Source: Basidiobolus meristosporus CBS 931.73
Lineage: Eukaryota; Basidiobolomycota; Basidiobolomycetes; Basidiobolales; Basidiobolaceae
Assembly (NCBI GenBank): GCA_002104905.1
Contig: MCFE01000684.1
Span: forward strand, 1-45,951
Length of the DNA stretch: 45,951 bases
Reading direction: 5' to 3'
Positions 30,996-45,951 of this stretch are shown here, one piece after another. Position 1 is the first letter of the stretch. Each line of letters starts with the position of its first letter. A program made the position numbers and the translations under genes. A model generated the notes under the pieces. It had not been told where the DNA came from. It did no database searches and saw nothing but the letters and a program-made list of their open reading frames with translations.

Positions 30996-33861
30996 AAGCT
31001 CACGAGACTGCTATAATTGGCTGTAAATAAATCCACGAGTTGACCTTAAGCACTTCTTGGAACGGATGTCCCTGCCATACTACAACCTATATCTCGCCAT
31101 ATTAGCCAATCATAGACTTAATCTGGATTGCTGGATATGCCCCAAGATGGATATCAAGAAATTCTGAGTGCATTAGCGCCTATTCAGATGGATTAGTCCA
31201 GCTTAGATCGGCGTTCATAATCTGGATCACCAGGGTGTGTAAATCACTCGTAGAAATTGATCCTTGCCCAGAGTGGACAATTTTGCAGCCAGGATTGGAA
31301 TCCTTAATGGTTTGCTACTCTCACATGGTAAATGATAGTGCCACGTTGCCGGCCTCGGTAAAGAACCCGGCATTCTTTTCAAGATAAGCAAACGTATCAT
31401 TGGGAAGCTATTCTACAACAATGGGAAGTGCATATCGGGTTGCATCGTGGCACCTTTGCTTTTTATTGGACATCCACGTTCAGATGGGGTTTATTTAAGG
31501 GTTCGGGCCAATAAAATAAAGAGCACGAATGAGTCTTCCTCACGACGCGGGCCAGTGGTTGAACCATAAATCAATCCGACTATTTGCCAAGACTGACGTA
31601 GGCGGCCCATGAAGGAATTTTTGAAACCATCCTCTCGAGGTAACAGTGAGAATCATTGAAATGGCCGAGATGGTGTTGAGGTTGGACTGGAGTATTCATA
31701 GATCAAGGCCTGCTGGTGACTGACTACAAATCCGGTGCACATGGCACCAAGAGCTTCAAGCCACATTGGATCCAGCTACTGATCAGATGGGGCGCTAGAT
31801 TTGGAAATTGATCATCTTTCGATTGTCGGTGTTCCCAAACATCATGAATCTCTGCACCTAGTACGCATTGTTTGATGCCATTTTTAGAAAACCAACGCTC
31901 GCCTCGGTCCCTAGAGCCTGTGGGGCTGGATTTTTGGGGGGAGTCATGAGGATGGCCATGAGTCGCACGCACTCCAACAGGATTCCTTGAAACACTCTGC
32001 ATACACAACAAAACGGATCCTTGTCATACATGATTTACAAGCCTCGTTGCTGTTGAATTTCCCATTGGCACATCGCAACTGATTCTAAGGAACCAACCAG
32101 GTAATGTGCGTTCAACACTTCCCAGACAGGTAAGACAATTCTTGATTGATCTGTTGATCCAATAGACATCGTTCAGGCATTTGGCTTCAATGGAGATGTG
32201 TTTAGTGTAACGTTCCACCCAATCTTTCCCATTAAGCACTTGGTTTGTTCCCCAGATGAGTAGTCTAGCTGTACGCTGGTGTTGTTGCGAACCATGGAGT
32301 GCCAAGACCAGTATGATTGTCCTTCTGGATACAACGCGGATTCCAATAATAACTGGCGGAAATGAACAATATTGACAACTTGGGATTGATGCTTTTCTAG
32401 AAGTAGCTCCATCCCGTTATAGTAGCACTGACGTGATTGTGGCCTTTACGAATATTTGCCGAGTCACTTCCGTATTTCTGTGGTAGCGATGATATGAAGT
32501 TTACAAATCGGCATCCGTTGAATAACCTTGGGTTCGAGTAAGACGTGTGCTTTCGCATGAGAAACATACTTCCAAAAACTCTTTCATCTGATGGGAGAGT
32601 AGTAGGATAAACACGAGAATTTCATCGAACGATTCCATATCTTTCGACCCATAACTCACCTATTCCGGGGAATGGGTTTTCAATTACAAAACGTGTTCCA
32701 GCGTAGTGGCGGGGTGGGGTCTTTTATAAATCTTCTAGAAATATCGTCTTTTCCCATTCCAACAGGGACCGAATACACTAGTTGCGAAAGCCATCAATGT
32801 TAGTCTCTTCACGAAGGGCTGCTCGCCGAAATATGATGCCATTCTTGGGGACTTCAACGGTTATATCGATGGGATCAGCGTTGTTCATCGCCTGATCCAT
32901 CGTTGTTCATATAGATTGGCTTTTACTGCCTCAACAAGGTCCGCCGCAGTAATTGGCGCCTAGGCGTCGTCGAGGCTAAAACCGTTGAGGCCTTACCAAA
33001 GCCTGGCCCCTATTTAAGGAGTACTTCATCACATTGAGCGTAAGCAGATTACATAATTGAGACGAAAGCGGGATCTTGATTGGGTGGTGCCTGTCACTGA
33101 AGTCAATCATAAGCGTAGATTTTATGTGACACTACCATCAATTTGTTTGTGGATCAAAATATTGGCAAGCACATGCTATGCATCGAGCCTAAAAGCGTCT
33201 CACCAGGCGAAATCCAATTGTTGACGAGTAGTCAAAATGATTGATGTGAGCAATAATGCAGTCAGCTAAGACAATATTATTTAAAGAATATGTATGACTG
33301 CTATGGCTAGTGTTGGAATTCTTAGGGTTGGGGTTAAGGGTTTAAATTCTTTTATTGAATCTGATAAAGTATAGTAATACCACTTCCATTTGATTCAAGT
33401 TGAATAGTGCAAATTGTACAATGTAGTCATATCTATGATAAAGTGAAAGTAAAAATACAACTAAAAATGAGTTGAGTTCTGAAAAGGAATTTATCAACAA
33501 AATCAGGCTAGAATATGAAGTAGAGTTGGGAGTTACTTGAAAGCAGAGCACCAAGGGAAAGTGTAAAGGTATACTACCACTTCTTGGAAGCCAGTGACAT
33601 CTCAGGAAGGCAGAAGCTCTGGACTAATTGCAGATATGATAGCAGAAAGCCTCTGGATGAGCTCCCTTTGTTTGCAGAACTGGAATGAAGATTGGGCATC
33701 CTTAAACCCAAAGCAGCTCTCTACATGAGAGAAGTAAGAATAACTGATATAGAAGGGGCATTTAGAGCACAAGCAAAGTGTGTTCATTCTCAACCTTATG
33801 GCCTAGAAAGCAAATAAGGAACTCCTGATGCTAAGGGATATGTATGCTCCACTATGTGAGT
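30996..33861. other. 2.9-kb gene-poor region with degraded minus-strand coding remnants
   Basis: No intact gene. On the minus strand between about 32930 and 31150, protein-like segments recur in changing frames, interrupted by stops. Examples are ADPIDITVEVPKNGI (about 32835), GTRFVIENPFPGIG (about 32680), YSNPRLFNGCRFVNFIS (about 32505), the frame 32173-32412, and SNPGCKIVHSGQG (about 31240). I do not recognise the family. Their spacing over 1.8 kb suggests a decayed gene rather than a spliced one. At 33313-33345 there is a degenerate TTAGGG-like stretch. The AT-rich 33340-33860 part holds one unassigned 63-codon frame (33602-33793, minus). Confidence 0.4.
31150..32930 (-). pseudogene. Possible decayed protein-coding gene, family unknown
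   Basis: Successive peptide-like segments on the minus strand look protein-derived but shift frame and contain stops. Longer uninterrupted pieces are 32173-32412, 32024-32305 and 31724-32011. I tried joining them with GT-AG introns and did not obtain a continuous product. The assignment rests on composition and segment order only, so it could equally be chance open frames. Confidence 0.3.
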
Positions 33862-33879
33862 CTTAGGGGGGTTAGGGGG
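33862..33879 (+). repeat. Telomere-like G-rich tract at 3' end of LINE copy A
   Basis: The sequence reads CTTAGGGGGGTTAGGGGG and runs directly into the antisense 3' end of LINE copy A. It resembles two imperfect TTAGGG units with expanded G runs. Confidence 0.6.
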
Positions 33880-34050
33880 AGACTGTCACCAACAGGTGAA
33901 ATCTTTGTTTCAGCTGAAACAACAAAGCCAGCACTACTGTTGTAGCTTTCAAACATGAGTGTGTAGGTGAGGGGAATTTGTAGGTAAGTTAGTCAGGAGA
34001 GATGATAGTTCTTCAGTGCTTATGACACTGTTCAGTGGGAAGGGGGTTAG
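33880..34050 (-). mobile_element. LINE copy A: diverged 3'-end fragment
   Basis: About 170 bp matching the 3' end shared by copies B-E (GAGACTGTCACCAACAGGTG, then the region encoding the RT C-terminal end) with roughly 15% differences by eye. It lacks most of the coding region and ends near 34050. It is the most diverged copy and so probably the oldest insertion. Confidence 0.75.
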
Positions 34051-34403: not shown

Positions 34404-34466
34404 GGGGGGGGGAGAAAGTCACCAACAGGTGAGATCTTTATTTCAGTTGAAACAAAGAAGCCAGTG

Positions 34467-35991
34467 CTACTGTTGTTGCTTTGATACAAGAGTGTGTAGC
34501 TGAGGGGAATTTGTAGGTAAGCTAATAACAAGTGATGATAGTTCTTCAGTGCTCAAGACACTGTTCAGGGGGAAGGGTGGTAGCAAGAGGGGTAAGAATG
34601 ATTTGCAAGCAACATTAATGAGGGGAATATGATAAGGATTGATATTCAACATAAAGGGAGTGTCCTGCTTCAAATATTTTTGCCAAAGGTCTGTCAAGTA
34701 CTTTAGGTAGGCCAGTTTGGAATTTTCCAACTGCAGAATATAGTGAGCAAGCTTTTTGACTTCAGGATCTCCAAGTATAGTTCTCCAGCAGGAGCCAGGT
34801 GTAGTGTGGTGTGTTCTCTTCCAGGCATTGATCAGCAGGTTGTGCAGTGGTAAAGTCTGAGATATAATCTGGTTCTAAGGTAGAGAAGTCTGATCTTATA
34901 GGGCATAAACCCAAAACACCAAGAAAAGCATGTCTGTAAGGGCTTCCAGGCAGATGAGGCACCAAGGAGGCAATACACCAGACTGCAAGTGTATCAAGCT
35001 TAGTGCAGTCTCTAGAAGTAAGAGAGAGAAGTGGTAAACCAAATTTCATGACAGGGAAGACAAGCAGCTTGAGTAGAAGGAGGCAGCTGGGAGCTGAGGT
35101 TGTAGGAGAAGTAACAGCCAGTAGCTTGTGGAGTGCCAGTCTTGCAAGGATAATTCTCTTCTTCAAGTGTGCTCCAAAGTCAAGTCTAGTGGGAAAGATA
35201 GGAAAGCCAAGATATGTTGCAGAAACCTGAGCTGGTAGAGTGCAGTTCTCCAAGTTGATAGGACAACCCAAAGGTAATAGACTTGTTCCATCATTCCAGC
35301 TGATCATAGTGCCCAATAGTGCCATAGCATGCCAGATAGTGCCTGATCATGCCACAGAGTGCCAGATGGTGCCATACAGTGCCAATTTGGGATCAAAATT
35401 GACATGCATATGGCCCTAAAATATCAAATTAATAATAAAAAATACAGCACTCTCTGGCACTATGATCAGTGGCACAATGGAACAAGTCTACTGTCTTTGC
35501 AATGGAAAGCTGGATATTATTCTTCTGCAGATACTAGTGGATGGTCTGGGAGTCTTGTTGCACATTATAGGAGGATATTCTGATGTCATCAGCAAACAGA
35601 GTAACCAGGCAGTCAGCTGACAGTCTTAGGAAATCATTCAGGAAGATTGCAAACAGTATAGGGTCAAGAACAGAGCCTTGAACCACTCCATTAGGAACTG
35701 ATAACACAGCTGCTTGCTCACTTGGGTGCAGAATTCTTGCTTGTGGATCCAGAAACAGAGACCTGACAAGGAGAGTGAGGGAGGTACTGGAGAAGCATTG
35801 CAACTTGGACCAAAGCAGATTTTTGTCAACTGAATCAAAGGCCTTAGTAATATCAAGCAGAACAGAGGGATACTTGCACTGGAGAGAGTGATCTCAGCTA
35901 AGTATGACTGCATATTCCAAGGAGAGGCCAGGAACAATGCCAAACTGTGCAGGGTGAGACTTAAGGGAGTTAGAGTAGAGCTCCTGAGCAA
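34467..35991 (-). pseudogene. Broken LINE reverse transcriptase of copy B
   Basis: RT remnant broken by frameshifts and the MITE insertion. The C-terminal part contains HKLLAVTSPTTSAPSCLLLL and the conserved LLYLRTRLY-equivalent region is altered. The catalytic region retains FADDIR. It is not capable of encoding an intact enzyme as it stands. Confidence 0.8.
35278..35490. mobile_element. 213-bp MITE with 14-bp perfect terminal inverted repeats
   Basis: Begins TAGACTTGTTCCAT (35278-35291) and ends with its exact reverse complement (35477-35490). Comparison with copies C and D, which are uninterrupted at this point (AAAGGTACTGTC), shows that it is inserted at a TA, leaving TA on both sides as Tc1/mariner-type elements do; one extra A is present on the left. 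The interior has no open frame and is full of AGTGCC/GGCACT motifs, some in inverted orientation. It is non-autonomous; no transposase is in the window. Confidence 0.8.
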
Positions 35992-36010
35992 TCAGAAGCT
36001 CAAACACCTT

Positions 36011-36625
36011 GTTGTATCCAAGAGAAAAGTGTAATAAAACTCTTGAATGAGTTAACTGAACCTAAGTGACAACTAAGTGCAGAACCTTAGAATTATCAAG
36101 AGTGTCAGAAATATTAGCAGAGAGGTTCTGATCTAATATTAGTCTTATATATAGCTGAGTTGGGCTATAAAGGTAACAGAGTAGGTTTGCTATGCAGGCT
36201 AGGCTTGGTGTTCTTGAGAGTGCTAAATATCCTAAGCTTGGGTAGAAACTAGAATGGATTTGTTGAATTCTTAATTTTGTTGAGACACAGACTAAACCAA
36301 AAGGTTCAGTAAACTTTATTTATACTTTTCTGATTGAGTTGCATTAGTAAGCACCAAGAGACTGGACTAATTGAAATCTGTTGGGGTGTTGATAGGTGCA
36401 TAAGATAAATGAAAAATTGCATCATTAATCAGCTGATGTCTTGGCAACTGCTAAGTGGTTGGATAAATCTCAGATGACTAATCACTTGGAAAGGCTTAGC
36501 AGATCAGTTGAGTATGTAATGACCACATGATAATTAATCAGGTGTGACAGCTAAAAATAGATTCTGAGAAGTGATAAAATAAATCATAACAGGGATTAGT
36601 TATGTTTGTGTTGTGCATCAACATT
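36011..36625 (-). repeat. LTR-like repeat, minus orientation (left arm of inverted pair)
   Basis: About 610 bp that align in reverse complement with 36665-37303. Matching anchors include GTTGTATCCAAGAG at the left end, AGGTTCAGTAAACTTTATTT in the middle and AAATAGATTCTGAG near the right. Identity by eye is around 80-85%. The partner arm precedes a gag-like frame, so this is probably a solo or truncated LTR inserted into LINE copy B. Confidence 0.7.
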
Positions 36626-36664
36626 TAAAACTTAGCCAATTTTACTCCATTTGAAATTCTAGTA

Positions 36665-37303
36665 CCCTAACTGACTTTCCCTAACCCAAACATAACAAAT
36701 CCCAGTTACAGTTTATTTTATCCCACCTCAGAATCTATTTTTAGCTATCACACCTGATCTATTTTCAAATGGTCATTACGTTATCCACATATCTGCCAAG
36801 CCTTCCCAGGTGACTAGTCATCTGAGATCTATCCAACCACTGTGCAGTTGCCAAGACATCAGTTGATTGATGATGTAGTTTTCATTTATCTTATGCACCT
36901 ATGAACACCCAAGTTGATTTCTATCAATCCAGTCCCTTGGCGCTTACTAATTCAACTTGATCAGAAAAGTATAAATAAAGTTTACTGAACCTTTTGGTTT
37001 AGTGTGTGTCTCAACAAAATTAAGATTCTGTCTCAGCAAAAATAAGAATCCAACAATTCCGTTCTAGTTTCTATCCAAGCCTAGTATATCTAGCACTCCA
37101 AAGAACACCAAGCCTAGCCTGCCTAGCAAACAAATATCATTGTCTTTATAGCCAACCCAGCTATATCCAAGACCAATATTAGATCAGAATCTTTCTGCTA
37201 ATATTTCCGCCACTCTGACAATTCTAAGATTCTGCACTTAATTGTCCCTTTGGTTCAGTTAAACCATTCAAGAGTTTTATTACACTTTCTCTTGGATACA
37301 ACA
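36665..37303 (+). repeat. LTR-like repeat, plus orientation (right arm of inverted pair)
   Basis: Inverted partner of the left arm, ending TTACACTTTCTCTTGGATACAACA with a CA terminus typical of LTRs. It lies just before a gag-like frame and so is read as the 5' LTR of a plus-strand LTR element. The left edge is uncertain because no clear TG terminus or target duplication could be fixed. No canonical tRNA primer-binding site was recognised after it. Confidence 0.65.
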
Positions 37304-37692: not shown

Positions 37693-38913
37693 TTTGGGGC
37701 TTGTTCTACAATGTAGAGGCTAATCAACAATATACAACAACTTCCAGTATGCTAATACTGAAATAGTTTATTGGGAGTTTGATATACCAATAGAAGATAT
37801 AACTTTCACTAATTTCCTCAATCTTAGGCTCAAAATATACTGTAGGCAGTGTTTATCACTTCTACAGCAGTGTTCTGACCTTCTGTTGACTAATGGGCTT
37901 ATTTACTTTTATAGTAACTTTTCCTTATTTGGAAGTCACTTTCCTTTCTGAGAAAATATTTCCTAATATGGAAATTCTGAGCTCCCCTTTAACCTAAAGG
38001 GGTGTGTTGTAGAAGTCTCTAAAGGGGTCTTTAGACCTAAAGGGGTGTCTAAAGGGGTGTCTTTAGAGTAAAGGGGCTTCTTGTAGTGGTCTCTAAAGTG
38101 GACTTTACACTAAAGGGGTGCCTAAAGGGGCTTCTTTAGAGTAAAGGGGTTTCTTAAAGGGGTCTCTAAAGGGGTCTTTAGACTAAAGGGGTGTCTAAAG
38201 GGGTGTCTTTAGAGTAAAGGGGTTTCTTAGAGGGGACTTTTCCAACAGAAAAGTGGTAGTTTCTTGTAGAACTTAGATTGGATTCTTGTGAGCTTTGCAG
38301 TCTCTTTACTGATGTAGTACCGATCAAAGTCAGAATACTCAACAGTGCAAGTGATGCAGGGGAAGTCTTATAACCTTTAAACTTGTAATTGTAGTGTGGA
38401 GATTCTGGAAAGAGAGGCTCTCTCTTTATTTTTCAGCTGGGGAAGTCATATATATGAAAATTTTGAAGGATCAAAGTTTTTGGGCGATTGCGCAAGCAAT
38501 ACACGTGATACAAAGCTGAAATTTTGCAGTGGCGCAGATCGGACATAGGCGCAGCACCTGTGAAAATTTCACGTGATTTGATTGGCTGGTTCAAAAGTTA
38601 CACACGATCAAAGTCACCATAGTAATCCTAGCAATAAGGCATAGTATATATAATAGTTGGACTCTTTTGGTCATAACTCCTTAAGTACTGCTTCAAATGA
38701 GCTGTAATTTGAAACATGTGTTGGCTACTACGTGTTCTGTATGACATAATATTCTTGGATGGATTGCTTGTCAGGGTCTGGGGCATTTGCTCTTCAAAGT
38801 TGGAAATTCTTGATCTTTCTGTTGTGTGTTACGATAGCAAAAAGCAAAATAAAGAAATGAGTGCAATATTGGTTTAGAGATATTGTAGTAATGGAATACT
38901 TTCCATTACCACA
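37673..38913 (-). repeat. Probable 3' LTR of the minus-strand Ty3/gypsy element
   Basis: Read on the minus strand, the integrase stop (38922-38924) overlaps a purine tract with GGGGGGACT, directly followed by TGTGGTAATGG. This is the arrangement of a polypurine tract and LTR start, placing the LTR edge at 38913. The LTR would extend left past the minisatellite at 38016-38235 to an uncertain end, perhaps near 37673. There are no open frames. The left boundary is a guess. Confidence 0.5.
38016..38235. repeat. Three-copy 73/74-bp G-rich minisatellite with internal hairpins
   Basis: Units at 38016-38089 (74 bp), 38090-38162 (73 bp) and 38163-38235 (73 bp), each beginning TCTCTAAAG. The units are built from alternating CTAAAGGGG and CTTTAG blocks, so CTAAAG-GGGT-CTTTAG can fold into hairpins, and GGGG runs recur every 8-20 bases. 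Confidence 0.85.
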
Positions 38914-38921
38914 AGTCCCCC

Positions 38922-39970
38922 CTAACTTTGAGAAATAATGCCCTCATTATTACTTCTGATATGGAACTTCTTCAATCTGTTACCAGGTTGTGTCAGTGCA
39001 AGTGGTGTACCGTCAAGTTCTGCTAGTTTGTAAGATCCATTTTTGTTTGCATGTATGATCTTGTAGGGACCTTGCCATCGCATATCCAGCTTGGATGCCT
39101 TGTTTCTTTGGCTTTTTGTGTTGTGAAGTAGTATCAACTCACCTACTTCTAACAATGTTTTTCTTAGGCATTTTTGAGCGTCAAAGTACTCCTTGCCAGC
39201 CATTCTGGATTTCTTCAGGTTTTCTATTGCATTCTGTTGCAGAGTGTGTGCTTGTTGAATCTGTTGTACTCTTGCTAGCAATAGCTCTGATGTTGTTGTT
39301 GTTGGTTTCCATGGGAGGGTAAGCCAATTCTCAAAAGATATGTCTATCGGCAAAACAGCATCATGTCCATATATTAAAAAAAATGGTGTATACCCTGTAC
39401 TTCTTTTAACCGTGACTCTATCAGACCAAATTGCTGCATGAAAGTTATTTGCCCATTTGTTGGGTTCTTCATAGCTAAGCTTTGCTAATGTGTTTGCAAA
39501 AGCAGAATGTCCATGTTCAACTGGTGAGTTTGCTTGTGGGTGATATGGCATAGTATGTATAAGCTTGGTTCCATGCTTTGTTGCTAGTGCTTGTATTTCA
39601 TAAGATCCACATTCTCCATTGTCTGCAATAAGGGTGCCAACTGAACCATGTCTGAGATATACATCTTCTTTGAGAAATCTTGCTACTGCTTTTGCATTGG
39701 CTTGTTTTAGCATTCTAGCCTCTATCCAACCAGTAAAGTTATCACGACAGTCCACCACATACTTATACCCAGCTGTTGCCCTTGGTAAATGTATAATATC
39801 TACATGTGCAATTTGCCAAGCATAAGATGTGTATATACTGTGAAGTGGTTCATGCATCTTTTGGTTGTCTCTTCTTTGACATGGAATACATGATTTCACA
39901 TATTCTTTTGTGTTGGTGTAAAGTGTTGGCCAAAAATACCGTAAGGAGATTTTTGCATATGTTGATGTAA
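38922..39970 (-). pseudogene. Ty3/gypsy integrase fragment, 5'-truncated
   Basis: C-terminal pol remnant. Reading on the minus strand: the end of the H2C2 zinc-binding module (YVKSCIPCQRRDNQK, its histidines lost at the truncation), the DDE core with DIIHLP, TLIADNGECGSYE and PYHPQANSPVEHGHS supplying the three acidic residues, and a GPY/F module (DMRWQGPYKIIHANKNGSYK) before the stop. The catalytic half is open for about 345 codons. The open frame nominally runs to 40001, but residues beyond about 39970 are read from telomere-like and LINE sequence. Reverse transcriptase, RNase H and protease are absent from the window. Confidence 0.88.
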
Positions 39971-39988
39971 TTAGGGTAGGGGGGGGGG
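39971..39988 (+). repeat. Telomere-like tract between integrase fragment and LINE copy C
   Basis: Reads TTAGGGTAGGGGGGGGGG and leads straight into GAGACAGTCACC, the antisense 3' end of LINE copy C. It replaces the upstream part of the integrase gene. Confidence 0.65.
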
Positions 39989-41876
39989 AGACAGTCACCA
40001 ACAGGTGAAATCTTTATTTCAGTTGAAACAAAGAAGCCAGCGCTACTGTTGTAGCTTTGATACAAGAGTGTGTAGCTGAGGGGAATTTGTAGGTAAGTTA
40101 ATAAGAAGTGATGATAGTTCTTCAGTGCTCAAGACACTGTTCAGTGGGAAGGGGGGTAGCAAGAGAGGTAAGAATGACTTGTGAACAACATTAATGAGGG
40201 GAATGTGATAAGGATTGATATTCATCATAAAGGGAGTGTGCTGCTGCAGATATTGCTGCCAAAGGTCTGTCAAGTACTTCAGGTAGGCCAGCTTGGGTTT
40301 TTCTGACTGCAGAATATAGTGAGCAAACTTCTTGACTTCAGGATCTCCAAGTATAGTTCTCCAGCAGGAGTCAGGTGTTGTGTGGTGTGTTCTCTTCCAG
40401 GCCTTAATCAGTGGGTTGTTGCAGTTGTGAAGTCTGAGGTATAATCTGGTTCTAAGGTAGAGAAGTCTGATCTTATAGGGCATAAACCCAAAAGCACCAA
40501 GAATAGCATGTCTGTAGGGGCATTGAGGCAAATGAGGCACCAAGGAGGTAATGCACCATACTGCAAACTTGTCAAGCTTAGTGCAGTCTCTAGAAGTAAG
40601 AGAGAGAAGTGGTAAGCCAAATTCCAGGACAGGGAAGACAAACTGCTTGAGTAGAAGGAGGCAGCTGGGAGCTGAAGTTGTAGGAGGAGTAACAGCCAGT
40701 AGCTTGTGGAGTGCCTGTCTTGCCAGGATAATTTGCTTCTTCAGGTGTGCTCCAGAGTCTAGTCCAGTAGGAAGGAAAGGAAAGCCAAGATATGTAGCAG
40801 AAACCTGAGCAGGTAGAGTGGAGTTCTCCAAGTTGATGGGAGAGCCCAAAGGTACTGTCTTTGCAATGGAAAGCTGGAGATTATTCTTCTGCAGATACTG
40901 GTGGATGGTCTGGGAGTCTTGTTGCACATTGGAGGAGGATATTCTGATGTCATCAGCAAAGAGAGTAACCAGGCAGTCAGCTGAGAGTCTTGGGAAATCA
41001 TTCAGGAAGATGGCAAACAGTATAGGACCAAGCACAGACCTTGAACCACTCCATTAGGAACTGAGAACACAGCTGATTGCTCACTTGGGTGCAGAATTCT
41101 TGCTTGTGGATCCAGAAACAGAGACCTGACAAGGAGGGTGAGAGAGGTACTGGAGAAGCATTGCAACTTGGACCAAAGCAGATTTCTGTCAACTGAATCA
41201 AAGGCCTTAGTAATATCAAACAGAACAGAGGGATACTTGCACTGGAGAGAGTGATCTTGGCTAAGTATGACTGCATATTCCAAGGAGAGGCCAGGAACAA
41301 AGCCAAACTGTGCAGGATGAAACTTGAGGGAGTCAGAGTAGAGCTCCTGAGCAAGCAGAAGCTCAAACACCTTTCTGCAGGTGGGCAGCAGAGATATTGG
41401 CCTGTAGGAGCTAGGATCCAGGTGCTTTCCTTTACCCTTGTACAGTGGCAGAACATTTGCAAAGGACCATTCCTCAGGAGTAGAAAGCTGGGCTGAGCAT
41501 TGCTGAAACAGTGGAAGCAGAAGTGCAGACATGGCCTTGGTACTAGTCTTCAGAAGCTCATAGGAGATTGTGTCCACACCTGGAGCAGTAGAGTTGGGAA
41601 GCCTCTTGAGCACATTATGGATTCTCTTTGATCAAGTGCAAGTGGGATGGGCAGAGTCTTGAAGTCAGGATGAAAGCCAGGAGTTGAGTACTGCTTTGTA
41701 GAGAAGAAGATGTTAGCCAGCTGTTCTGTTGAAGGTAACTTCCTGGAAGAGGGCTCATTGCCTGTAGAGTCTTGATACTGTTCTTGTTATAGAGTTGAAG
41801 ATTGCAGAGCAAGATCATAATGATCAGAGTGAGTATGCAGAGTGTGTGAATGCTGGAGTGTGTATGCTGTCAGAGG
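39988..41876 (-). mobile_element. LINE copy C: 5'-truncated copy
   Basis: About 1.9 kb, near-identical to copy D, from the 3' end GAGACAGTCACCAACAGGTG to a 5' truncation near 41876. The 5' 200 bp carries numerous small deletions relative to D. It covers the RT domain and C-terminal region only. It has no poly(A) tail: the 3' end is C-rich on the sense strand. It lies head to tail with copy D. Confidence 0.9.
40043..41613 (-). pseudogene. LINE copy C reverse transcriptase, frameshifted
   Basis: Two overlapping frames, 41613-41002 (RT fingers/palm: APGVDTISYELLK, SSYRPISLLPTCRKVFE, DITKAFDSVDR, VPNGVVQG) and 41035-40043 (FADDIRIS, thumb and C-terminal region). They are separated by a 2-bp deletion near 41038 relative to copy D. 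Upstream of 41613 further small deletions break the frame. Not intact. Confidence 0.85.
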
Positions 41877-41885
41877 TTAGGGGGG
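41877..41885 (+). repeat. Telomere-like junction TTAGGGGGG between LINE copies C and D
   Basis: Short G-rich stretch joining the truncated 5' end of copy C to the 3' end of copy D, in the same orientation as at the other junctions. Confidence 0.55.
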
Positions 41886-41939
41886 AGACAGTCACCAACA
41901 GGTGAAATCTTTATTTCAGTTGAAACAAAGAAGCCAGCG

Positions 41940-43716
41940 CTACTGTTGTAGCTTTGATACAAGAGTGTGTAGCTGAGGGGAATTTGTAGGTAAGTTAATA
42001 AGAAGTGATGATAGTTCTTCAGTGCTCAAGACACTGTTCAGTGGGAAGGGGGGTAGCAAGAGAGGTAAGAATGACTTGTGAACAACATTAATGAGGGGAA
42101 TGTGATAAGGATTGATATTCATCATAAAGGGAGTGTGCTGCTGCAGATATTGCTGCCAAAGGTCTGTCAAGTACTTCAGGTAGGCCAGCTTGGGTTTTTC
42201 TGACTGCAGAATATAGTGAGCAAACTTCTTGACTTCAGGATCTCCAAGTATAGTTCTCCAGCAGGAGCCAGGTGTTGTGTGGTGTGTTCTCTTCCAGGCC
42301 TTAATCAGTGGGTTGTTGCAGTTGTGAAGTCTGAGGTATAATCTGGTTCTAAGGTAGAGAAGTCTGATCTTATAGGGCATAAACCCAAAAGCACCAAGAA
42401 TAGCATGTCTGTAGGGGCATTCAGGCAAATGAGGCACCAAGGAGGTAATGCACCATACTGCAAACTTGTCAAGCTTAGTGCAGTCTCTAGAAGTAAGAGA
42501 GAGAAGTGGTAAGCCAAATTCCAGGACAGGGAAGACAAACTGCTTGAGTAGAAGGAGGCAGCTGGGAGCTGAAGTTGTAGGAGGAGTAACAGCCAGTAGC
42601 TTGTGGAGTGCCTGTCTTGCCAGGATAATTCTCTTCTTCAGGTGTGCTCCAGAGTCTAGTCCAGTAGGAAGGAAAGGAAAGCCAAGATATGTAGCAGAAA
42701 CCTGAGCAGGTAGAGTGGAGTTCTCCAAGGTTGATGGGAGAGCCCAAAGGTACTGTCTTTGCAATGGAAAGCTGGAGATTATTCTTCTGCAGATACTGGT
42801 GGATGGTCTGGGAGTCTTGTTGCACATTGGAGGAGGATATTCTGATGTCATCAGCAAAGAGAGTAACCAGGCAGTCAGCTGAGAGTCTTGGGAAATCATT
42901 CAGGAAGATGGCAAACAGTATAGGACCAAGCACAGAGCCTTGAACCACTCCATTAGGAACTGAGAACACAGCTGATTGCTCACTTGGGTGCAGAATTCTT
43001 GCTTGTGGATCCAGAAACAGAGACCTGACAAGGAGGGTGAGAGAGGTACTGGAGAAGCATTGCAACTTGGACCAAAGCAGATTTCTGTCAACTGAATCAA
43101 AGGCCTTAGTAATATCAAACAGAACAGAGGGATACTTGCACTGGAGAGAGTGATCTTGGCTAAGTATGACTGCATATTCCAAGGAGAGGCCAGGAACAAA
43201 GCCAAACTGTGCAGGATGAAACTTGAGGGAGTCAGAGTAGAGCTCCTGAGCAAGCAGAAGCTCAAACACCTTTCTGCAGGTGGGCAGCAGAGATATTGGC
43301 CTGTAGGAGCTAGGATCCAGGTGCTTTCCTTTACCCTTGTACAGTGGCAGAACATTTGCAAAGGACCATTCCTCAGGAGTAGAAAGCTGGGCTGAGCATT
43401 GCTGAAACAGTGGAAGCAGAAGTGCAGACATGGCCTTGGTACTAGTCTTCAGAAGCTCATAGGAGATTGTGTCCACACCTGGAGCAGTAGAGTTGGGAAG
43501 CCTCTTGAGCACATTATGGATTCTCCTTTGATCAAGTGCAAGTGGGATGGGCAGAGTCTTGAAGTCAGGATGAAAGCCAGGAGTTGAGTACTGCTTTGTA
43601 GAGAAGAAGATGTTAGCCAGCTGTTCTGTTGAAGGTAACTTCCTGGAAGAGGGCCTCATTGCCCTGTAGAGTCTTGATACTGTTCTTGTTATAGAGTTGG
43701 AAGATTGCAGAGGCAA
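41940..43716 (-). pseudogene. LINE copy D reverse transcriptase with one-base frameshift
   Basis: The RT domain is clear: LPNSTAPGVDTISYELLK, YRPISLLPTCRKVFELL, FGFVPGLSLEYAV, VLFDITKAFDSVDRNLLW, GVVQGSVLGPILFAIFLNDF and the catalytic FADDIRIS. An extra G near 42729, absent from copy C, moves the thumb/C-terminal part into the frame of 42899-41940. That part has a Leu-rich stretch and PYHIPLINV near its end. The active-site aspartates are all present, so the break is recent or a single-base assembly artefact. Confidence 0.9.
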
Positions 43717-44693
43717 GAACTCATAATATGATCCCAGAGCTGAGTATGCAGAGTGTGGTGAATTGCCTTGGAGTGGTGTATTGCTGTCAGGAGGAGTTTC
43801 TCTGTTTTTGGGTTAGGGAAACTCAGGTAGCTTTGTTGCAGGGCTGAAACAATGGATTCCCATTTTCTTGAGGTAACAGCAGTAGTCTTGCATGGCAGTG
43901 AGAGGGAGGCAGACACCAGAATCAGATGCTTCACAAAGAGCCAGGCATAGTTGAGATCATCTGGCAGAGAAAGTAGCAAACTGGCAAGCTTCAAGTAGTT
44001 CCCAAAGTCTTTCTTCTGATTCTTGGTAGCTTTGTGGGTGAGCACAGTAAGTTTTGGCAGCTTCTTCTTCACAACTGGTTGCATAGAAAGGGACCAGGCT
44101 GGGTGGTCAGAGGCTCTCAAGGATCCTAGCTCAGCTCCAGAGAATTGCTTAACTTCATTCACAAAGTAGAGGGCAGCAGCAGAAGGGCAGATCCAGTCAA
44201 CACATCTTTTCTCAGATTGAGCACCTAGTGCTAGCAGATGGCTTTCTCTCAGGAAGTTCAGTAGGAATGTAGACCTTGGCTTCATTCTTGCAGTCAGAGT
44301 AGTCTTGTTCTCAGGATGGGGAATGTTGAGATCTCCAAGCAAGATAATAGGTGTTGATATAGATTGCTGGTATTGCTGAACTTTCTGGCATATAACTTGC
44401 ACTTCCTGAAGGGCAAGACTTGGAGGCAGATAGCAGAGCACCAGACTGATAGTTGGCAACTGGAGAGCAGCACAGTAAGGGGAGTAAAGAGGAACACAGA
44501 GCTGAGGAGTATTGATGGTAGAAGAGATGAAGCAGATAGAGGAGGTATTCTTTGTTCTAGGAGTAGAAAAGCAATATAGATTAGTCAAAAGTATAGAGGG
44601 TAGCTGGACATCAATCAAACACAGGAGGGAAAATCTTGAAAGAAGTCTCTCTAGAGTTGGTCTTGATGGCTGTATGCTGTTGCAGTTAAGCAA
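43689..44693 (-). pseudogene. LINE copy D APE-type endonuclease domain
   Basis: 334-codon frame for the N-terminal half of ORF2. LLGDLNIPHPENK (catalytic Asp/Asn loop) and RASDHPAWSLS (the conserved SDH end of the APE fold) are visible. It starts with MLNCNSIQPSRPTLERLL, comparable to the WNCNSI start of LINE endonucleases. The usual QE motif after the second strand appears altered. The frame overlaps the RT frame by 28 bp in a different phase, indicating a further frameshift near 43700. Confidence 0.85.
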
Positions 44694-44708
44694 CAGAACT
44701 TCAGGTAG

Positions 44709-45126
44709 TCAGGCAGAGGTTGTAGCTTCTTCAGAGGCAGCATTGACAATGTGACCTGCAGAGTCCCAGAGCTCTTCAAATGGTGCATCACTTAAGTCAG
44801 CAAGGAGGGAAATGGCATGATTCTTGAGGAAGTATGCCACATCATAGGAGGGGGCTTGTCTCTTGATGGCAGCAAAGAAAGACAGAATGGCAACATGGGC
44901 TGGAGGCTTGTTGAACAGTAGAGAGTCAGAGGATTCAGATTCTTCAGGCACTATCTTGAAGTCAGTTTTCAGCCAGTTAAGGTTCTTCTCCACAAAGGCA
45001 ACAAATGGGTCAGCAATGTTTTGGTCTAGGATAACCTCCAGAATCTTCCCTTTTCTCCAGGCCAGGTTGACAATTCTTGAGAGCTGAATATTGCATGCTT
45101 GAGTGCTTCTGATGTTGAATGGGAGT
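44709..45126 (-). pseudogene. LINE copy D ORF1-like 3' fragment
   Basis: Open frame from the truncated 5' end to a stop at 44709, 16 bp before the endonuclease frame. It encodes a charged, helical product (RIVNLAWRKGKILEVI, then VAFVEKNLNWLKTDFKIVPE and ISLLADLSDAPFEELW). The position suggests the C-terminal part of ORF1, the LINE RNA-binding protein, but no RRM or zinc knuckle is seen in this piece. Confidence 0.55.
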
Positions 45127-45150
45127 CAGGGAATGCTTCAGTACACACAG

Positions 45151-45169
45151 TAGGTAGGGTTAGGGGGGG
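45151..45169 (+). repeat. Telomere-like tract between LINE copies D and E
   Basis: Reads TAGGTAGGGTTAGGGGGGG. It is the best telomere-like junction in the window, with nearly two consecutive TTAGGG units leading into the antisense 3' end of copy E. Confidence 0.7.
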
Positions 45170-45951
45170 AGACAGTCACCAACAGGTGAAATCTTTATTT
45201 CAGTTGAAACAAAGAAGCCAGCGCTACTGTTGTAGCTTTGATACAAGAGTGTGTAGCTGAGGGGAATTTGTAGGTAAGTTAATAAGAAGTGATGATAGTT
45301 CTTCAGTGCTCAAGACACTGTTCAGTGGGAAGGGGGGTAGCAAGAGAGGTAAGAATGACTTGTGAACAACATTAATGAGGGGAATGTGATAAGGATTGAT
45401 ATTCATCATAAAGGGAGTGTGCTGCTGCAGATATTGCTGCCAAAGGTCTGTCAAGTACTTCAGGTAGGCCAGCTTGGGTTTTTCTGACTGCAGAATATAT
45501 TGAGCAAACTTCTTGACTTCAGGATCTCCAAGTATAGTTCTCCAGCAGGAGCCAGGTGTTGTGTGGTGTGTTCTCTTCCAGGCCTTAATCAGTGGGTTGT
45601 TGCAGTTGTGAAGTCTGAGATATAATCTGGTTCTAAGGTAGAGAAGTCTGATCTTATAGGGCATAAACCCAAAAGCACCAAGAATAGCATGTCTGTAGGG
45701 GCATTCAGGCAAATGAGGCACCAAGGAGGTAATGCACCATACTGCAAACTTGTCAAGCTTAGTGCAGTCTCTAGAAGTAAGAGAGAGAAGTGGTAAGCCA
45801 AATTCCAGTACAGGGAAGACAAACTGCTTGAGTAGAAGAAGGCAGCTGGGAGCTGAAGTTGTAGGAGGAGTAACAGCCAGTAGCTTGTGGAGTGCCTGTC
45901 TTGCCAGGATAATTCTCTTCTTCAGGTGTGCTCCAGAGTCTAGTCCAGTAG
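45169..45951 (-). mobile_element. LINE copy E: 3' end, continues past the window
   Basis: Near-identical to copies C and D, with only a few differences by eye over 780 bp. It runs from the 3' end GAGACAGTCACCAACAGGTG to the window edge. It forms the third unit of the head-to-tail array. Confidence 0.9.
45224..45951 (-). pseudogene. LINE copy E reverse transcriptase C-terminal part, edge-truncated
   Basis: The RT C-terminal frame is open from the window edge to the stop at 45224, with the same Leu-rich region and PYHIPLINVVHKSF motif as in copy D. No frameshift is visible in this segment. Whether the full copy is intact cannot be told here. Confidence 0.75.

Follow-up and report, generated by a model that had tools for sequence, protein, structure and literature searches.

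Structure of the terminal region of the contig

Contig MCFE01000684.1 of the fungus Basidiobolus meristosporus CBS 931.73, whose full length of 45,951 bp forms the window analysed here, carries towards its right end five copies (A to E) of a long interspersed nuclear element (LINE) of ~4.6 kb, which are joined to TTAGGG-like sequence and point to a retrotransposon of chromosome ends. The assembly comprises 89,006,234 bases in 1311 contigs, and is given as PacBio-derived (PMC7466969). Between positions 1 and 33,300 no match was found to the LINE or to its two partner elements, one resembling a short interspersed nuclear element (SINE-like) and one encoding only the first open reading frame (ORF1-only), while the sequence beyond 33.3 kb includes the TTAGGG-like junctions, the LINE copies, an inverted-repeat pair and a cut Gypsy element (Table 1). 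An earlier sequence-only reading of this DNA had quoted junctions at 33863 (TTAGGGGGGTTAGGGG), 39971 (TTAGGGTAGGGG), 41877 (TTAGGGGGG) and 45151 (TAGGTAGGGTTAGGGG), all of which were recovered at these positions with antisense LINE sequence following each of them. As small corrections, copy B is preceded by a bare G-run without TTA, and a more internal TTAGGG-like junction, to another sequence, lies at 33322. Within the window the TTAGGG enrichment is modest, with eight matches to (TTAGGG)2 at up to two mismatches against 2.88 expected (2/100 shuffles reach eight), and thus the weight of the junction evidence comes from the genome-wide counts.

Table 1. Features of the terminal part of the window; identities are to the terminal LINE copy of contig C780, which serves as reference
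Feature	Position	Strand	Remarks
Innermost TTAGGG-like junction, TTAGGGTTGGGGTTAAGG	33322..33339	+	Followed by non-LINE sequence; no LINE match before 33880
TTAGGG-like tract preceding copy A	33863..33879	+
LINE copy A	33880..34050	-	3'-terminal 171 bp; 89.5 %
G-run preceding copy B	34404..34412	+	Without TTA
LINE copy B	34413..36010	-	Matches at 34413-35276 (90.7 %) and 35489-36010 (95.2 %), ~210 bp of other sequence in between
Gypsy integrase reading frame	38922..39970	-	Cut at 39970; copy C sits on it
Tract preceding copy C, TTAGGGTAGGGGGGGGGG	39971..39988	+
LINE copy C	39989..41873	-	5'-truncated; 97.9 %
Tract preceding copy D, TTAGGGGGG	41877..41885	+
LINE copy D	41886..45157	-	5'-truncated within ORF1; 99.0 %
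3' hairpin of the RNA, UCACC-UGUU-GGUGA	41892..41905	-	Common to LINE, SINE-like and ORF1-only elements
AATAAA	41910..41915	-	On the RNA, shortly 5' of the hairpin; read from sequence
Reverse transcriptase frame, copy D	42487..43812	-	PF00078 (RVT_1), 4.9e-25; frame-shifted relative to the endonuclease frame
Frame with APE-like endonuclease, copy D	43689..44708	-	PF14529, 7.6e-5, below the curated cut-off; Asp33 where relatives have Glu
TGA-CTA border	44706..44711	-	ORF1 and ORF2 in the same frame; 10/10 borders
C-terminal part of ORF1, copy D	44709..45125	-	No Pfam match
Last part of TTAGGG-like tract preceding copy E	45158..45169	+
LINE copy E	45170..45951	-	Cut by the contig end; 98.9 %

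The Gypsy element on which copy C sits ends abruptly within its integrase frame, and two other copies of the same Gypsy continue beyond the cut point. This arrangement is what a broken chromosome end healed by a LINE would look like. Since the contig stops within copy E, before any telomere is reached, we infer rather than observe the loss of a telomere at this end.

Orientation and position of the LINE across the genome

The 25-base word at the LINE 3' end (GAGACAGTCACCAACAGGTGAAATC) occurs 602 times on the plus and 43 times on the minus strand of the assembly, with no occurrence of the same word read backwards as a control. A similar bias exists for (TTAGGG)5 (6978 plus; 73 minus), the LINE 5' region (plus strand in 40/40 scored copies) and the ORF1-only element (37 plus; 3 minus among 40 scored copies), in contrast to the control, the Gypsy piece at 39700-39970 (19 plus; 21 minus among 40 scored copies). 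The strand counts of (TTAGGG)5 and of the telomere-array starts indicate that telomeres lie mostly at the right contig end, which is also the direction in which the LINE points. The telomere-array starts of one phase (102 plus; 1 minus) reveal an orientation bias of the assembly that is unexplained, and the nearly 100 contigs carrying this one kind of start imply many chromosomes or split haplotypes.

The junctions were studied in 68 LINE copies retrieved with their 3' end, 44 of which occur on 29 contigs of at least 60 kb. This sample is non-random, and consists of the best 30 of 43 sequence matches, the first 30 listed matches to the 3'-end word and stretches picked later. On the contigs of at least 60 kb, 42/44 copies are located within 20 kb of the end to which they point, where 5.8 would be expected if they were evenly placed, rather than being scattered through the interior, the pattern which the sequence-only reading had named as speaking against its telomeric interpretation. 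The exceptions are found on C558 and C726, in interior element arrays (L009, C558, 95.4-99.5 kb; L007 and L145, C726, 56-66 kb) for which chromosome fusions or misassemblies are possible origins. Copies in both orientations are present in the C726 array. A single ordinary insertion was rejected for the C558 array, which is a multi-element layer with unmatched DNA at 1, 20, 45, 102 and 115 kb and may represent a fusion, a misassembly or a relic.

Telomere tracts on the inner and outer sides of the elements

The LINE is oriented with its 3' end towards the centromere, preceded by zero to four TTAGGG units, and its 5' end, complete or not, is joined to a further element or to the terminal (TTAGGG)n. 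At least one T(1-3)AGG unit precedes the element at 60/68 LINE junctions, so that the joining of LINE 3' ends to TTAGGG, as claimed from the window, holds genome-wide. The inner tracts are very short, comprising no unit in eight junctions, one in thirty-eight, two in seventeen, three in four and four in one (median 12 bp; maximum 30), and those at twenty-two SINE-like junctions are of similar length (median 10 bp; maximum 24). The last G-run measures six in 33/68 LINE junctions; TTA stands before it in 52/68 LINE and 15/22 SINE-like junctions. The caveat of the sequence-only reading, that the C-rich tail could belong to the element itself, thus appears only partly right: the G-run, and perhaps the TTA, look element-encoded, while the further TTAGGG units may derive from either the RNA or the chromosome. 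Sixty-one distinct 12-nt inner flanks were distinguished among the 68 LINE junctions, the sole recurrent flank (eight times) being the end of the SINE-like element, which suggests mostly many separate events and not spread by recombination.

The outer tracts are far longer. In all fifteen terminal ends examined (places 2-16 of the list of telomere-array starts) the array extends as far as the contig end, which lies 135-258 bp beyond the matched start (~200 bp overall), and the tract of C22, which holds place 1 and was retrieved separately, measures 221 bp. Among 32 other contig ends, 31 of them on contigs with LINE copies and one a filler, with C22 included, seventeen terminate in TTAGGG (156-249 bp, several of these lengths being overstated by nearby TTAGGG words). 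The left ends of eight further contigs have no terminal TTAGGG. The terminal repeat is therefore TTAGGG, and not another repeat as the sequence-only reading had allowed for, and its proposal of a telomere-capping or telomere-targeted element gains support from the copies near (TTAGGG)n contig ends with variable, short TTAGGG tracts at their junctions.

LINE 5' breakpoints differ widely, and the copies then meet TTAGGG or the next element, the telomere being joined directly to a truncated LINE in some cases and to a complete 5' end elsewhere. Even scraps are capped with TTAGGG, including pieces of ~10 nt (L084) and ~40 nt (L074) and a SINE-like piece of 45 nt (L132). The fifteen listed telomeres rest on LINEs truncated near 411, 657, 1963, 2985 and 3973 (five), the SINE-like element (three), another LINE (one; ORF1 similarity, by eye), other repeats (three), Copia-like sequence (two; by eye) and a cut tRNA gene (one; by eye). 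In the last of these (L131; C249:12561-12691) the telomere is apparently fused to a tRNA gene cut near its end (anticodon loop Lys-like, by eye), and host DNA is thus capped without a LINE.

The layers usually appear older inside and younger outside. In the window the identity to the reference rises from copy A through B and C to D and E (Table 1), and among 33 contig-strands with at least two matched pieces the outermost piece is nearer to the reference in 21/25, with eight ties besides. This test is supporting evidence only, since the reference is itself a terminal copy, from one of the 33, and the compared pieces represent different parts of the element.

Anatomy of the LINE

The terminal copy of C780 begins with AGACAG and reaches the terminal TTAGGG after 4562 bp. 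By eye, a CPNCG...CKC stretch can be made out close to the start of ORF1, which is followed in frame by ORF2. When the border codon was left free in the search, TGA was found in 10/10 stretches showing it, which belong to two LINE families with differing neighbouring residues. UGA-CUA is a readthrough motif, and the two frames are probably joined by readthrough. Individual copies have broken frames, including the C780 copy and copy D. The 5' untranslated region of the C780 copy (L063) contains CCCTAACCCTAA, and its first ~100 bp are tandemly repeated in L062. The ends represented by L004, L114 and L129 carry at least one further LINE family, which has a separate ORF1 and an endonuclease that likewise bears Asp.

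By its domains the element can be classed as an apurinic/apyrimidinic endonuclease (APE)-type LINE, with a reverse transcriptase (RT) but no long terminal repeats (LTRs), an APE-like endonuclease ahead of the RT, and 5'-truncated copies. LINE-1 ORF2p is the nearest solved relative of the RT (2.2e-13, compared with 0.034 for R2), and no restriction-like (REL-type) endonuclease domain of Pfam was found after the RT. The endonuclease retains N, Y, GDxN and SDH in alignment with its relatives, residues which, like the catalytic Glu, have established functional roles in APE endonucleases. In the column of the catalytic Glu, however, the alignment places Asp, where Glu occurs in all six outside relatives that cover the column (two more do not cover it). 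Asp was found in 10/10 endonuclease frames when this residue was left free (eight of this LINE family and two of the second family), as well as in P0121 (ENA contig), a relative with 76 % identity and the only one returned by a protein search with the endonuclease frame. A search of the endonuclease against solved structures gave no matches.

Partner elements and the shared 3' tail

The tail families of the LINE, SINE-like and ORF1-only elements have CACCAA...GGTG in common, with a loop varying in sequence and length, followed by AAATCTTTATT. The RNA tail would read CCCCCC, perhaps with UAA, and AAUAAA, found upstream of the hairpin, is a polyadenylation signal. Shuffled sequences fold far less well than the LINE 3' end (z -4.2), while the tails of the SINE-like and ORF1-only elements are not distinguished from their shuffles (z -0.8 and -1.7, respectively), though each forms the hairpin. 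A tail common to three element types points to what the RT reads. The ORF1-only family encodes a frame of 242 amino acids, which is open in 4/4 stretches compared and has a nonsynonymous to synonymous ratio (pN/pS) of 0.04-0.34 over six pairs. As only 1021 bp separate tail and telomere in L116, there is no room for an RT in this element. The SINE-like element has 524 nt with A- and B-box-like words in its head (B box exact, A box with two mismatches against the consensus; 1/400 mononucleotide shuffles as good), but the head was not recognised as a tRNA by ARAGORN (0 in four loci) and had no Rfam tRNA match.

Further repeats are interspersed with these elements. At window positions 36010-37303 a repeat of 600-700 bp occurs twice in inverted orientation, with arms up to 90 % complementary, and looks like either a foldback element or a pair of LTRs; it is also present in the ORF1-only stretch L115, past ORF1 (98 % and 83 %). 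A 73-bp tandem repeat of the CTAAAGGGGTGTCTAAAGGGG type, in four copies, lies at 37963-38255.

Proposed attachment to chromosome ends and alternative explanations

The junction structures favour attachment of the elements to ends with little or no telomere, followed by capping. It is proposed, with a probability of roughly 0.7, that a telomere-dwelling APE-type LINE and its ORF1-only and SINE-like partners lengthen chromosome ends in a fungus that also has a telomerase gene, whose RNA-binding domain was found on C880 as two pieces, one with an internal stop and both over the cut-off. In the proposed sequence, a chromosome end largely stripped of its telomere, through a break or with zero to four TTAGGG units left, would receive the element 3' end which it is seen to adjoin. 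The LINE RT would recognise the shared 3' RNA hairpin, and the 3'-OH of the chromosome end may prime complementary DNA synthesis, with its G's probably paired to the C-rich RNA tail CUGUCUCCCCCC and perhaps then to UAA. Complementary DNA of any length, matching the observed pieces of ~10 nt to ~4.6 kb, would become the new end, to which telomerase, as the presumable agent, would add the ~200 bp of TTAGGG seen there. Later rounds of loss and re-attachment would produce the head-to-tail layers.

Several observations weigh against this proposal. The evidence is one of sequence structure, with neither activity nor new insertions observed. The outermost piece is farther from the reference in 4/25 contig-strands, two arrays are interior (at 98 kb in C558 and 59 kb in C726), and 15/32 contig ends have no terminal TTAGGG, with many stopping inside an element. 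Furthermore, 6/15 listed telomeres rest on sequence outside this LINE and SINE-like group, so that breakage and capping also occur at other sites and do not need the element. The endonuclease has been kept, with 76 % conservation in a relative, and probably does something. Finally, interstitial TTAGGG tracts of more than three units are described as breakage-prone in Magnaporthe (PMC7367193), and contraction could have given rise to the short inner tracts. This weakens the argument drawn from the short tracts but does not remove it, since they are short beneath scraps at the very end as well.

One alternative is an endonuclease-targeted insertion, in which the APE domain would nick TTAGGG in the manner of TRAS and SART, with target-primed insertion within the telomere and later contraction of the inner but not the outer tract. 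Such targeting would account for the conserved APE-like domain and for the TTAGGG-like unit at 60/68 junctions. It has precedents in the APE-type TRAS and SART elements, described as inserting in telomere repeats (PMC4700185, PMC5537684), and in MoTeR, whose short inner tracts are reported to arise along with insertion into telomeres (PMC7367193). However, insertion anywhere in a 200-bp telomere would be unlikely to leave inner tracts of 0-30 bp throughout, beneath the outermost scraps too, and for this reason a capping or end-attached element suits the data better than one inserted into telomere repeats. With no unit at all at eight junctions, G-runs abutting non-telomeric DNA directly, and Asp in place of the catalytic Glu, targeted insertion is considered unlikely.

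Spread of the arrays between ends by break-induced replication or unequal exchange, without retrotransposition, could draw on the recombination known of subtelomeres, through which MoTeR arrays are described as growing in part (PMC7367193), and on the inverted copies in C726. Considering the diversity of the inner flanks, among which only a SINE-like element end recurs, the widely different truncation points, and that long stretches common across junctions were not seen at most ends in the sample, this explanation is highly improbable. Hardly any credence is given to an assembly artefact, in which repeats would have been collapsed or joined into chimeras close to contig breaks. The contig ends that stop without a telomere, the indels in some stretches and the odd appearance of C558 and C726 would fit such an origin, but the orientation is fixed relative to the telomere whereas that of the Gypsy repeat is not (19/21), the arrays reach the contig end at 135-258 bp in 15/15 cases, and an age order is not expected from misassembly.

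Attachment of the LINE to uncapped ends thus being preferred, a further and tentative suggestion can be made. The end-building community of LINE, ORF1-only and SINE-like elements may have arisen in this early-diverging fungus separately from that of Drosophila and act alongside telomerase, the element copying its telomere-complementary C-run tail onto any uncapped end as a first-aid cap that telomerase finishes, with an Asp-bearing endonuclease no longer needed to open a target.

Comparison with known telomeric elements

No description of this element was found in the openly licensed Basidiobolus literature on telomeres and retrotransposons, covered mostly at listing level. Among fungal telomeric LINEs, MoTeR (Magnaporthe), FoTeR (Fusarium) and Cnl1 (Cryptococcus) are assigned to the CRE-type clade, with a C-terminal REL endonuclease (PMC12857005). 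MoTeR resembles the Basidiobolus element in having 5' ends towards the chromosome end, 1-10 TTAGGG units between copies and, in MoTeR1 and MoTeR2, a common 3' border sequence, as far as these sources describe it (PMC12857005, PMC7367193). The APE-like domain ahead of the RT, and an RT nearer to LINE-1 than to R2, nevertheless indicate from the predicted domains that the element is not a CRE-type LINE. TRAS and SART of Bombyx are APE-type LINEs as well, located at telomeres in a host with telomerase, and one of the two families runs antisense to the G-strand (PMC4700185, PMC5537684). They are, however, reported to be full-length and to insert in TTAGG repeats by a sequence-specific endonuclease (PMC4700185), whereas the copies described here are mostly truncated, with tiny inner tracts and Asp for Glu. 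Zepp of Chlorella, named in PMC5537684 and PMC10088271, is likened by description only, as a LINE accumulated in a telomeric region.

HeT-A, TART and TAHRE form head-to-tail arrays at Drosophila chromosome ends and are held to attach to the 3'-OH, with HeT-A as an ORF1-only element beside autonomous ones (PMC4700185). The end-directed head-to-tail arrays of B. meristosporus, with the 3' end towards the centromere and an ORF1-only member, show the same organisation. They differ in occurring in a host with a telomerase RNA-binding domain and with a TTAGGG cap possible on every layer, while Drosophila has neither telomerase nor TTAGGG-type repeats, and in including a SINE-like partner with the same tail, which is C-rich instead of poly(A). 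Athena of rotifers also combines a short stretch of telomeric repeat at the 3' end with 5' truncation, as observed here, which has been read as transposition to uncapped ends (PMC5537684); it is, however, a Penelope-like element without an endonuclease, while the present element is a LINE with one and an RVT_1 domain nearest to LINE-1. In its proposed mode of action the Basidiobolus element comes closest to the Drosophila telomeric elements and Athena. Telomeric LINEs are few, and those compared either belong to a host that lost telomerase, as in Drosophila, or are regarded, as with TRAS/SART, MoTeR and FoTeR, as inserting specifically into telomere repeats. On the reading preferred here, hundreds of copies in one genome would record that chromosome ends were repeatedly lost and capped anew although the host has a telomerase gene, and the old question of how a host shifts between telomerase and retroelement telomeres would become testable in a cultured and sequenced fungus.

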